Shown piece by piece: positions 16,196 to 20,085 of a DNA stretch of 64,000 nt. Source of the DNA: an uncultured bacterium (GTDB lineage Bacteria; Planctomycetota; UBA1135); contig CALFOT010000110.1 of NCBI GenBank assembly GCA_937919925.1, forward strand, positions 124,001-188,000. The letters run 5' to 3'. The notes under the pieces were generated by a model. That model was not told where the DNA came from, made no database searches, and saw nothing but the letters and a program-made list of their open reading frames with translations. The translations under genes and the position numbers were made by a program. Numbering within the stretch: position 1 is the stretch's first letter; the number at the start of each line of letters is the position of its first letter.

Positions 16196-16699
16196 TTAGG
16201 ACTGCAAACGGTCTTGCAAAGCGCGGTCTTTGACTAAGACCTGGTCATGTTGTTGCTTGCGAAAATCATCCAACTTTTGGGCTATGCTGGCATCGGCAAC
16301 GCCAAGGATTCGCAGCGCGGTCAAGGCGGCATTGACTGGCCCACCAACGCCTACTCCCACGGTAGCCACGGGCACTCCGCCCGGCATCTGCACCGTTGCA
16401 AGCAGAGCATCCAAACCACCCAACGGCGGGTTATCCATAGGGATGCCAATCACTGGCAAACTGGTGTGTGCAGCAATCACCCCAGCCAAGTGAGCGGCAC
16501 CACCGGCCGCGCAAATGATGACTTCCAGTCCGCGGGCGCGCGCACTACTGGCAAAAGCACACGCTTCCTCAGGAGTGCGGTGAGCGCTGAGCACGCGCAC
16601 TTCAGCGGGAATGCCAAAATCGCGAAGGGTTTTTACAGTAGCTTCGAGGCGCGGGAAATCGGAATCCGATCCCATTAGCAGGGCAATGCGAGCAGTCAT
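16196..16699 (-). CDS. purE: N5-carboxyaminoimidazole ribonucleotide mutase
   Basis: 167 residues, the class I PurE length. GSDSD near residue 10, SAHRTP, and [10 protein letters not shown] form the active site, with the His of SAHRTP the catalytic acid/base. It moves the carboxylate of N5-CAIR to C4 in de novo purine synthesis. Class I enzymes normally need PurK, which is not here. The start overlaps the ruvA stop by ATGA, so it is translationally coupled to ruvA, an unusual repair/purine pairing that probably has no functional meaning. Confidence 0.95.
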
Positions 16700-17298
16700 G
16701 AGTTTGATCCTAAAGCAAAACGGAGGAGTTCTTGAAAATCAGCGTCGGCGCCAAGCTCGGCGAAGGCGGCGCGCGCACTGGTTTCGGCAACCGTGGTGCT
16801 GGCGCCGAGTTGGACGAGCACTCGCTCTAAATCCGTGGTGGTTTGGAGGGCAGCCCTAGGAGCAGCTAGTAAAGAACTAGCAGCGCCCGGCTGGTACAAA
16901 TCTTCGAGGTGATCACGCAGTTCCACGATCAAGCGTTCGGCAGTCTTTTTGCCCACACCCTTCATCGCCGTCAAGCGTTTGGTATCGCCATCTAAGATGG
17001 CACGCACCATTTCATTAGGCGGCAAAGAGCTCAATAAGCCGAGTGCCGAAGATGGGCCAATACCATTGACTTGGAGCAAACGGCGAAACAAGGCGCGCTC
17101 GGTGAGGCTCTCAAATCCATACAGGACCTGCGTGGTTTCACTCACCGATAAATGCACCGGCAAGCGATGTTCCCTACCAATTTCCAATCCCGCGGCGCAA
17201 CGACTACTGACGGCAACATGCCAACCTACGCCGCCGACGTCTAGAATTACCCAAGCCGCTCCGACTTCGTCGATGCGGCCGTGAAGGTATTCGTACAC
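16696..17298 (-). CDS. ruvA: Holliday junction helicase subunit RuvA
   Basis: 200 residues with a GTG start. An N-terminal OB domain (YLHGRIDEV...VGWHVAV), paired helix-hairpin-helix motifs (LLQVNGIGPSSALGLL and MKGVGKKTAERLIVEL), a variable Ala-rich linker, and the C-terminal domain III that contacts RuvB. RuvA tetramers bind four-way junctions and load RuvB for branch migration. Neither ruvB nor ruvC is in the window, so the usual ruvCAB cluster is split. It lies 12 bases after the TPR/alpha-CTD gene and overlaps purE. Confidence 0.95.
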   Translation of the reverse strand: MYEYLHGRIDEVGAAWVILDVGGVGWHVAVSSRCAAGLEIGREHRLPVHLSVSETTQVLYGFESLTERALFRRLLQVNGIGPSSALGLLSSLPPNEMVRAILDGDTKRLTAMKGVGKKTAERLIVELRDHLEDLYQPGAASSLLAAPRAALQTTTDLERVLVQLGASTTVAETSARAAFAELGADADFQELLRFALGSNS

Positions 17299-17310: not shown

Positions 17311-18669
17311 TTATTCCTGGCCGTAATCTTCGCCACGGCCACTACGCAAGCGCAGGCCATACTCTTCCAGCTTTTTCTGTAGCTCGTTGAGTGAGGTAAT
17401 CCCGAAATTAGGCATACCCAGCAAATCTTCCTCGGAGTACAACAGAATGTCGCTAACGCGTTGCAAGTTCAAGCGCTCCACCAATGCACGGTGACAACGT
17501 ACCGACAAGTTCAAAGTGCTGATTTGCAGATCGAGCGCCTCGCGCTGCTCTTCACTGAGCTTGCCGAGCCATGCTAGTTCGGTTTCAATATCGATCGAAC
17601 GCGAAGCATCAAACTCATCCGGAATCACGAAGGTGCCGTCGTCACGACGAATACCTAGGCGCAGGCCTTTTAAGTTCAACACGCGCTTGATCTCGTTGAG
17701 AGAAGTTTCGCCGAAATTTTTGAACTCCAGCAAATCTTCTTCGGTGTGAGAAACCAACTCGCTGAGCGATTTGATATTCATGTTGGTCAGGCAGTTACGC
17801 GCGCGTACCGACAATTCGAAATCCGATATCGGAGTACGCAGGACTTTCATCAACTGGTCTTCTTTCAACTCGCGGTTTTCATCGTAGAACATGTCTAGCG
17901 AATCATGCGAATCGTGGAAGTATAAGCGTGCTACCTGGTTATTTGGATCGCGGCGTAAAACGGCTCCAAAGCAGCCGCAAGCGCGTTCGAAGTCATTGCG
18001 GTCTTCATAAAGAATCCCCAAGTTCAACAATACTGCGGCGGGAATTGGCAGAGAAGTAAGGAAGCCTTCGTAAAGGCTAACGGCTAGAAGCTCATCACCA
18101 TGTAAATCGGCGCGAAAAGCAAGACGAAAGCGTGCGGCAAAATGCTTGGGATCAAGCTCGATAGCACTGCGATAATCAACGGCGGCAGCTTCATAGGCGC
18201 CGTCGAGTTCTTTGCGACGCCCAGCGAAGTAAAGCTGATCCGTTGCCGACAACTGCGCCACTTTCAGCGCAGCGATAAATTCTTCAGCACGATTATCGGC
18301 GAGCAGAGCATGCAAAGTACAAGCTACCAGTTGTGGGTCTTGCGACTGGTGCGAACCTTTCAAGGTTGCGCAGGCTGCAGCAAAATTACCTAACTCAAAC
18401 TCGCTGTTGCCCTTTACGAAAGTATCTAACTCACTGGTGTGGCCAACAAAATCGAGAGCTTTTTGGTATTCGCCTGTGACCCACGAACCCATTGCCGCGA
18501 GCACTTGGTTGCCACCATTACGGGCTTCACGCACTGCGGACTCAAATTTCTCCGCATTGGCAAGATTGGTGATAAAGCGACTGCGCGCATCCACCAAAGC
18601 GGACGGGGTGCTAGGAGGTGCAGCGAAAAACGCGGCGGAATCAACTACGGGGGCCTGAGTAGCTTGCAC
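17311..18669 (-). CDS. TPR protein with two RNA polymerase alpha-CTD-like domains
   Basis: 452 residues from GTG 18669. The first 250 or so are helical with TPR-like repeats (for example YRSAIELDPKHFAARFRLAF). Two alpha-CTD-like helix-hairpin-helix domains follow at about 279-340 and 381-442. Domain 1 keeps Arg289, Asn292, Cys293, Gly320 and Ser323, matching E. coli alpha R265, N268, C269, G296 and S299 used on UP-element DNA; Thr replaces K298. Domain 2 keeps the Arg (391), Gly (423) and Ser (426) but has Arg and Ala at the N268 and C269 positions. There is no alpha N-terminal domain, so this is not RpoA. Frame extends to TTG 18816, but a TAGAAT box at 18723-18728 argues for the later start. 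Cytosolic; function unknown, perhaps a transcription modulator. Confidence 0.82.
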   Translation of the reverse strand: MQATQAPVVDSAAFFAAPPSTPSALVDARSRFITNLANAEKFESAVREARNGGNQVLAAMGSWVTGEYQKALDFVGHTSELDTFVKGNSEFELGNFAAACATLKGSHQSQDPQLVACTLHALLADNRAEEFIAALKVAQLSATDQLYFAGRRKELDGAYEAAAVDYRSAIELDPKHFAARFRLAFRADLHGDELLAVSLYEGFLTSLPIPAAVLLNLGILYEDRNDFERACGCFGAVLRRDPNNQVARLYFHDSHDSLDMFYDENRELKEDQLMKVLRTPISDFELSVRARNCLTNMNIKSLSELVSHTEEDLLEFKNFGETSLNEIKRVLNLKGLRLGIRRDDGTFVIPDEFDASRSIDIETELAWLGKLSEEQREALDLQISTLNLSVRCHRALVERLNLQRVSDILLYSEEDLLGMPNFGITSLNELQKKLEEYGLRLRSGRGEDYGQE

Positions 18670-18722
18670 TTGGCTTATGACTTGAATTTTAGTACCCCAG
18701 CCGAATCGGCAACGGGCCGCAC

Positions 18723-18752: not shown

Positions 18753-18801
18753 TCTTCAGGTGGGCTGGAAACCATTGGCCCTTGGCGTCAAACTGCTGAC
18801 A

Positions 18802-20085
18802 ATGGATTGTTTCCAAGTGGTCGGCGGTAATGCTCTAAATGGGGTCGTAGCTGCTTCGGGGTCGAAAAACGCTACCCTTCCTCTGTTGGCTGCAGGTTTG
18901 CTGCTGGAGGGGCGCTCCACATTAGCGGGCGTTCCAGATTTGCGCGATATCGACACCATTTTGGAACTGCTCCGCGAGCTGGGTATGGTTTTTGAGCGCC
19001 ACGGCGACTGCCTCTCTCATGCAGTGGTGGATTCTGCGGTCACCGCTGCCCCTTACGACATTGTGCGCCGTATGCGCGCTTCCATCTGTGTGCTTGGCCC
19101 ATTGTTGGCACGCCGCGGAGCCGCCAAAGTGCCATTGCCGGGCGGCTGTGTTTTTGGTCTGAGGCCGGTCGATTTGCACGTGCGCGGCCTACAAGCTTTA
19201 GGTGCTGAGATCACCCAGGAGTTCGGCTGCTTGATCGGCAAAGCTCCAGCCAAAGGTTTACGCGGTGCCGTCATCGACCTACGTTCCGCTTTTGGCTCTA
19301 CGGTTCTGGGCACGGTGAATGTCATGCTCGCAGCGGTTTTAGCGCAAGGGACTTCGCTCATCCGCAGTGCTGCACGCGAGCCTGAGGTGGTGGAAGTGGC
19401 CAACTATTTATGCGCGTGCGGGGCGCAAATCAGCGGCGCTGGCAGTGATTGTATTGAGATTCAAGGCGTGGATTCGTTACGCGCGGTGCCGTGGCGGGTA
19501 CCTGCCGATCGTATTGAAACGGGCACTCTGTTGCTCGCCGGGGCGATTACCCGCGGCAAGGTGCGCGTGGCCGGTTGCCGTCCGCTGGATTTGAGCGCGC
19601 TGCTCCACCTGATGCTTGCCAGTGGCTTGAAAATTACCACCGGTGTGGATTGGATAGAAGTGGATGGAGGTTCGGGTGATTTGCACGCTGTGCCTTGTGA
19701 AACGGCTCCATTCCCTGAATTTCCCACGGACCTACAAGCGCAATGGATGGCCTATTGCACCCAGGTCGCCGGCATTTCGAAGATCACCGAAGGGGTTTAT
19801 CCAGAGCGATTTATGCATGTGCCAGAACTGCAACGCCTCGGTGCAAATTTGGAGCGTTGTGGCGCCACCACCTTGGTTCACGGTCCCAGTTTTTTGATGG
19901 GGGCCCCCGTTCTGGCCTCCGATTTACGTGCCAGCGCCAGCTTGGTTTTGGCCGGTTTGGTGGCGCAAGGAGAAACCACCGTGCGTCGGGTTTACCATTT
20001 AGACCGTGGCTACCAGCGCTTGGAACAGAAGTTGGCAAGTTTGGGGGCCCATGTGCAACGCCTGGTCGATTCCGATAAGCCCTGA
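18802..20085 (+). CDS. murA: UDP-N-acetylglucosamine 1-carboxyvinyltransferase
   Basis: 427 residues of the EPSP synthase fold. Lys22-Asn23 in SGSKNATLP bind substrate and the active-site Cys is retained in PLPGGCVFGLRPVDLH, predicting fosfomycin sensitivity at the enzyme level. It transfers enolpyruvate from PEP to UDP-GlcNAc, the first committed step of peptidoglycan synthesis. ATG 18802 fits the family N terminus (MDCFQVVGG); an in-frame ATG at 18760 would add 14 residues not seen in homologues. Peptidoglycan synthesis is informative because it was once thought absent in planctomycetes. Confidence 0.95.
   Translation: MDCFQVVGGNALNGVVAASGSKNATLPLLAAGLLLEGRSTLAGVPDLRDIDTILELLRELGMVFERHGDCLSHAVVDSAVTAAPYDIVRRMRASICVLGPLLARRGAAKVPLPGGCVFGLRPVDLHVRGLQALGAEITQEFGCLIGKAPAKGLRGAVIDLRSAFGSTVLGTVNVMLAAVLAQGTSLIRSAAREPEVVEVANYLCACGAQISGAGSDCIEIQGVDSLRAVPWRVPADRIETGTLLLAGAITRGKVRVAGCRPLDLSALLHLMLASGLKITTGVDWIEVDGGSGDLHAVPCETAPFPEFPTDLQAQWMAYCTQVAGISKITEGVYPERFMHVPELQRLGANLERCGATTLVHGPSFLMGAPVLASDLRASASLVLAGLVAQGETTVRRVYHLDRGYQRLEQKLASLGAHVQRLVDSDKP

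Follow-up and report, generated by a model that had tools for sequence, protein, structure and literature searches.

In bacterial RNA polymerase, the standard module for docking and for UP elements is the C-terminal domain of the alpha subunit (alpha-CTD), which the alpha N-terminal domain tethers to the core. A gene on the minus strand of the window (the whole 64,000-nucleotide stretch of planctomycete DNA that was analyzed) encodes a predicted protein that lacks this tether and joins two alpha-CTDs to a TPR-like half. To our knowledge, transcription in the Planctomycetota has been little studied. The gene and its parts are laid out as follows:

17311..18669, minus strand: TPR/tandem alpha-CTD protein (P0001), 452 aa, recognized by its translation, domain matches and conservation in the phylum
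17839..18606, minus strand: helical TPR-like half with capping helices, residues 22–277 (Pfam TPR_2, 1.6e-9; all-helical model, pLDDT mostly >80)
17650..17832, minus strand: alpha-CTD domain 1, residues 280–340 (profile, residue and fold matches to alpha-CTD)
17554..17649, minus strand: variable linker joining the two alpha-CTDs, residues 341–372 (11% identity across 21 genomes; low pLDDT)
17347..17544, minus strand: alpha-CTD domain 2, residues 376–441 (profile match; R265 kept, N268 and C269 lost)

A spurious or chance open reading frame at 17311–18669 is ruled out by conservation across the phylum. Orthologs open with an ATG (MSQV...), and the window has ATA at that place, three codons upstream of 18669 (18669–18681). 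The nearest usable start is the GTG at 18669, three codons downstream of the ATA, where the gene probably begins.

Identity of the Two Alpha-CTDs

The original prediction described a TPR-like half followed by two tandem alpha-CTDs without the alpha N-terminal domain, and this layout was confirmed by profile searches with alpha-CTD and TPR models, both of which found their domains. In Pfam, RNA_pol_A_CTD (PF03118) matched twice (whole-protein E 3.1e-35; 120 bits, cut-off 23.8). Matches to more than one TPR model were also obtained, the best at E 1.6e-9. The RpoA models of NCBIfam matched in their C-terminal part only, with scores under their cut-offs; for instance, TIGR02027 matched only over its positions 220–296 (113.6 bits vs. 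a cut-off of 227.8), and the RpoA N-terminal domain is absent. A separate rpoA in the same genome is intact, single and ordinary (338 aa). Scored with the alpha-CTD model, domain 1 reaches 80 bits, compared with 64 bits for this real RpoA.

An AlphaFold2 model built from 18 orthologs (mean pLDDT 84.5) places helices at residues 22–277 and alpha-CTD-type elements at residues 280–340, followed by a loose linker and a second alpha-CTD-type set at residues 373–441. In a Foldseek search of the PDB, this predicted model, which is not a solved structure, matched the Caulobacter alpha-CTD on AT-rich DNA (9zum_E; TM 0.86 by target length, 1.5 Å, 44% identity, E 6.4e-4), and the remaining fold matches were mostly generic TPR superhelices. 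Among PDB sequences, the best alpha-CTD matches were RpoA chains, covering residues about 265–347. The C-terminal part was also modeled from a single sequence; that model was poor (pLDDT 44) and was left out of the evidence. The original prediction had allowed that the two domains might prove to be generic HhH pairs unlike alpha-CTD; the profile scores and the 9zum fold match rule this out. Judged by profile and predicted fold, both domains are true RNA polymerase alpha-CTDs.

Conservation of the DNA- and Sigma-Contact Residues

Mean pairwise identity across 21 genomes from about 19 families is 71% for domain 1, 53% for the RpoA CTD, 55% for the RpoA N-terminal domain and 43% for domain 2, and it is 20–35% in the TPR half (20–43% over residues 22–277, which include the capping helices) and 11% in the inter-CTD linker. 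Individual residues were counted in 60 genomes for domain 1 and in 58 for domain 2 and are numbered here as in E. coli alpha, where positions 265, 268, 269, 296, 298, 299 and 302 are established DNA contacts and positions 259 and 261 established sigma contacts. In the protein of the window, the domain 1 equivalents are D283 (D259), E285 (E261), R289 (R265), N292 (N268), C293 (C269), G320 (G296), S323 (S299) and E326 (E302).

In domain 1, E261, V264, R265, N294, G296, T298, S299 and E302 are invariant in all 60 genomes, N268 and C269 are each kept in 59, and position 259 is D in 55 and E in the remainder. The DNA-contact set of R265, N268, C269, G296, S299 and E302 is complete except for K298, which is replaced by T. 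The original prediction, which credited domain 1 with five of these residues (R265, N268, C269, G296 and S299), was right on all five but too modest, as the canonical set extends to E302, D259 and E261. Nor does the T at 298 make the match a partial one, since 20 of 21 planctomycete RpoA proteins carry exactly the same T. Domain 1 also has E in place of K297 (60/60), and E stands there in some planctomycete RpoA CTDs as well. Positions 271, 273 and 287, which face activators, are variable or not the same in domain 1 and RpoA (M273 vs. mostly A or E).

The sigma-contact face D259/E261 is kept in domain 1, and region 4 of the genome's own sigma-70 has counterparts of R596 and R603. On this mapping, sigma would offer a partner surface for D259/E261, which is compatible with such a contact and does not discriminate between explanations. 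The RpoA CTD of the window's family departs from the usual pattern, with T264 and V299 in all members and R259 in most (L002:1444-2460, L152–L160). Domain 1 shows none of these changes in this family: position 259 is D or E, position 264 is V and position 299 is S.

Domain 2 keeps R265 (56/58) and E302 (57/58), whereas N268 is found in only 7 of 58 genomes and C269 in 26, leaving the DNA-contact set incomplete; position 268 is K or R in most genomes. Its loss of N268 and C269 in the window's protein was correctly predicted. Two family members (L141 and L145) end soon after domain 1 and are missing domain 2, which seems to be dispensable in some lineages.

Distribution and Origin

The protein is a core gene product of the Planctomycetota, near-universal among the sampled genomes. 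A profile search within the phylum, a check that the original prediction had proposed, covered 244 genomes at least 85% complete (172 genera, 74 families). A best match was counted at E < 1e-35, as RpoA's own CTD can reach about 1e-20; a match of some kind was found in all 244 genomes, and 239 of them passed this threshold. The five above it (G029, G106, G127, G152 and G232) are all drafts. In G232, which belongs to the window's family, the protein is absent and rpoA is kept, reflecting either a draft gap or a real loss. Each of 20 genomes checked with the RpoA model has one rpoA and both domains of the TPR/alpha-CTD protein. Two genomes have extra weak alpha-CTD-like matches outside rpoA and outside this family (G083:C27:71911-72225 and G120:C4:55088-55339), in frames of 1405 and 221 aa, respectively.

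A tree of 70 CTDs over 66 columns, weak in detail, groups the domain 1 sequences (97/93) and the domain 2 sequences (98/90) in clades of their own and places planctomycete RpoA CTDs with those of E. coli, B. subtilis and other bacteria (97/87). This tree argues against a recent copy of the genome's own rpoA and favors an origin of both domains before the sampled phylum diversified. A phage or plasmid gene was rejected: phage, plasmid and viral collections held no full-length relative, and there was no PHROG match.

Genomic Context

The gene heads a run on the minus strand, as originally predicted, and lies divergent to murA:

16696..17298, minus strand: ruvA, the next gene downstream after a 12 nt gap (TIGR00084, 2e-47)
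16196..16699, minus strand: purE-like gene (AIR carboxylase), third in the run (PF00731, 1.4e-56)
18802..20085, plus strand: murA, divergent and upstream (TIGR01072, 4.5e-140; in the ORF at 18760, the match begins with residue 15)

An mtnA-like gene, named by eye, follows purE in the run. When the next recognized downstream gene (same strand, within 700 bp) was recorded in 60 genomes, it was ruvA in 41, spoIID in 6 and queH in 3; in 9 of the 60, the gene adjoins queH or spoIID without ruvA. In deep lineages, the order is the gene itself, ruvA, ruvB, queH, spoIID, tgt, yajC and secD. Two genomes of one family have ruvC between the gene and ruvA, so that ruvC-ruvA-ruvB lies directly downstream. 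YebC is the gene usually found upstream of ruvC; replacement of YebC by the TPR/alpha-CTD protein is ruled out, as YebC is encoded elsewhere in 12 of 12 genomes tested.

The same gene order in other bacteria is a housekeeping arrangement. The linkage to ruvA is thus real and ancient but probably of this housekeeping kind. Because genes for repair, tRNA modification, the cell wall and secretion are mixed in it, the operon says little about function. The suggested link to junction processing keeps its positional basis, now conserved through the phylum, and is weakened by the presence of queH, spoIID, tgt, yajC and secD in the same operon.

A Possible Alpha-CTD in Trans

At a probability of about 0.5, the preferred explanation is that the protein is a vertically inherited, Planctomycetota-wide transcription factor working as an alpha-CTD in trans; we infer for it DNA binding, a contact with sigma or polymerase, a regulatory role and a partner of the TPR half. 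Domain 1 would be an alpha-CTD that is not attached to the polymerase core and would most likely bind close to promoters, entering the minor groove of A+T-rich, UP-like DNA. Its D259/E261 would touch sigma region 4, like the promoter-proximal RpoA alpha-CTD in E. coli, and the TPR half, together with the more variable domain 2, would recruit a partner protein or supply a second contact. As a result, an alpha-CTD position could be added or blocked at chosen promoters. The fold, the DNA- and sigma-contact residues, the extreme constraint, the near-universality and the separate intact rpoA are in favor of this explanation. Against it, the neighbors are repair, tRNA-modification and secretion genes and include no transcription genes, and the E at 297 in domain 1 could weaken a phosphate contact. 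In a broader form, which we consider unlikely, the protein would be a general promoter factor, a stand-alone alpha-CTD acting in trans at a large share of promoters, where it would make the UP-element and sigma contacts that in other bacteria fall to RpoA's own CTD, here the faster-evolving one.

A conserved DNA face does not imply polymerase and could serve DNA binding in repair or in the nucleoid. The alpha-CTD may have been re-used, for instance, as a DNA clamp of an accessory to recombination or replication, acting with RuvABC and making no polymerase contact. The position next to ruvA in most genomes, and before ruvC-ruvA-ruvB in two, would fit such a role; however, the operon is shared with genes of other processes, the 9 genomes with a queH or spoIID neighbor lack the ruvA linkage, and DNA binding alone leaves the invariant sigma-contact residue E261 unexplained. 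We consider this role unlikely. A structural, nucleoid-like protein binding A+T-rich DNA in general is the least probable of the alternatives. Two potential DNA-binding domains on a flexible linker would suit it, but domain 2 mostly lacks N268, often lacks C269 and is altogether absent in two genomes, and TPRs are unusual in nucleoid proteins.

The strong constraint on domain 1 could also be that of a decoy, which would titrate or redirect activators or regulators that normally bind the RpoA CTD, with the TPR half as a regulated input; alpha-CTD copies without the N-terminal domain cannot join the core polymerase as alpha. Against a decoy, it is the DNA face that is conserved, with the activator-facing positions 271, 273 and 287 variable or different from RpoA. 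We consider a decoy unlikely, ranking it between the RuvABC accessory and the nucleoid-like protein.

Public automatic annotation presumably labels such proteins "alpha C-terminal domain-containing" or "TPR protein." Literature searches found no paper describing the TPR/alpha-CTD protein, and a keyword search of the main text of the Planctopirus limnophila essential-gene paper (PMC10632474) did not find it. Alpha-CTDs and alpha-CTD fusions are known already. What looks new from the sequence comparisons is a near-universal tandem alpha-CTD on TPRs, slower-evolving than RpoA's and with one domain seemingly competent for DNA binding. That nearly every genome has such a slower-evolving alpha-CTD, free of the polymerase and mounted on a scaffold, suggests that promoters are wired differently in the Planctomycetota.

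Comparison With Known Systems

The TPR half resembles TPR scaffolds such as designed CTPR proteins, OGT and APC/C subunits in the generic superhelix only and points to no specific family. Alpha-CTD-like modules outside RpoA are suggested by weak matches to the BREX kinase PglW, the beta' model PRK14906 and the small protein PRK07758, but these have other partner domains, and the matches are far under the curated cut-offs. For PglW, the scores are 24.6 bits vs. a cut-off of 990 (NCBIfam) and 19.1 bits with E 6e-5 (PADLOC); a BREX/PglW defense gene is ruled out, as this weak match, made via the alpha-CTD, is the only one. The closest likeness is to the RpoA alpha-CTD itself (PF03118), which both domains resemble by profile and fold and whose DNA- and sigma-contact residues domain 1 keeps. 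Unlike RpoA, the protein has TPRs in place of the alpha N-terminal domain and so would not assemble into the core as alpha, and its domains fall in clades apart from all RpoA CTDs.
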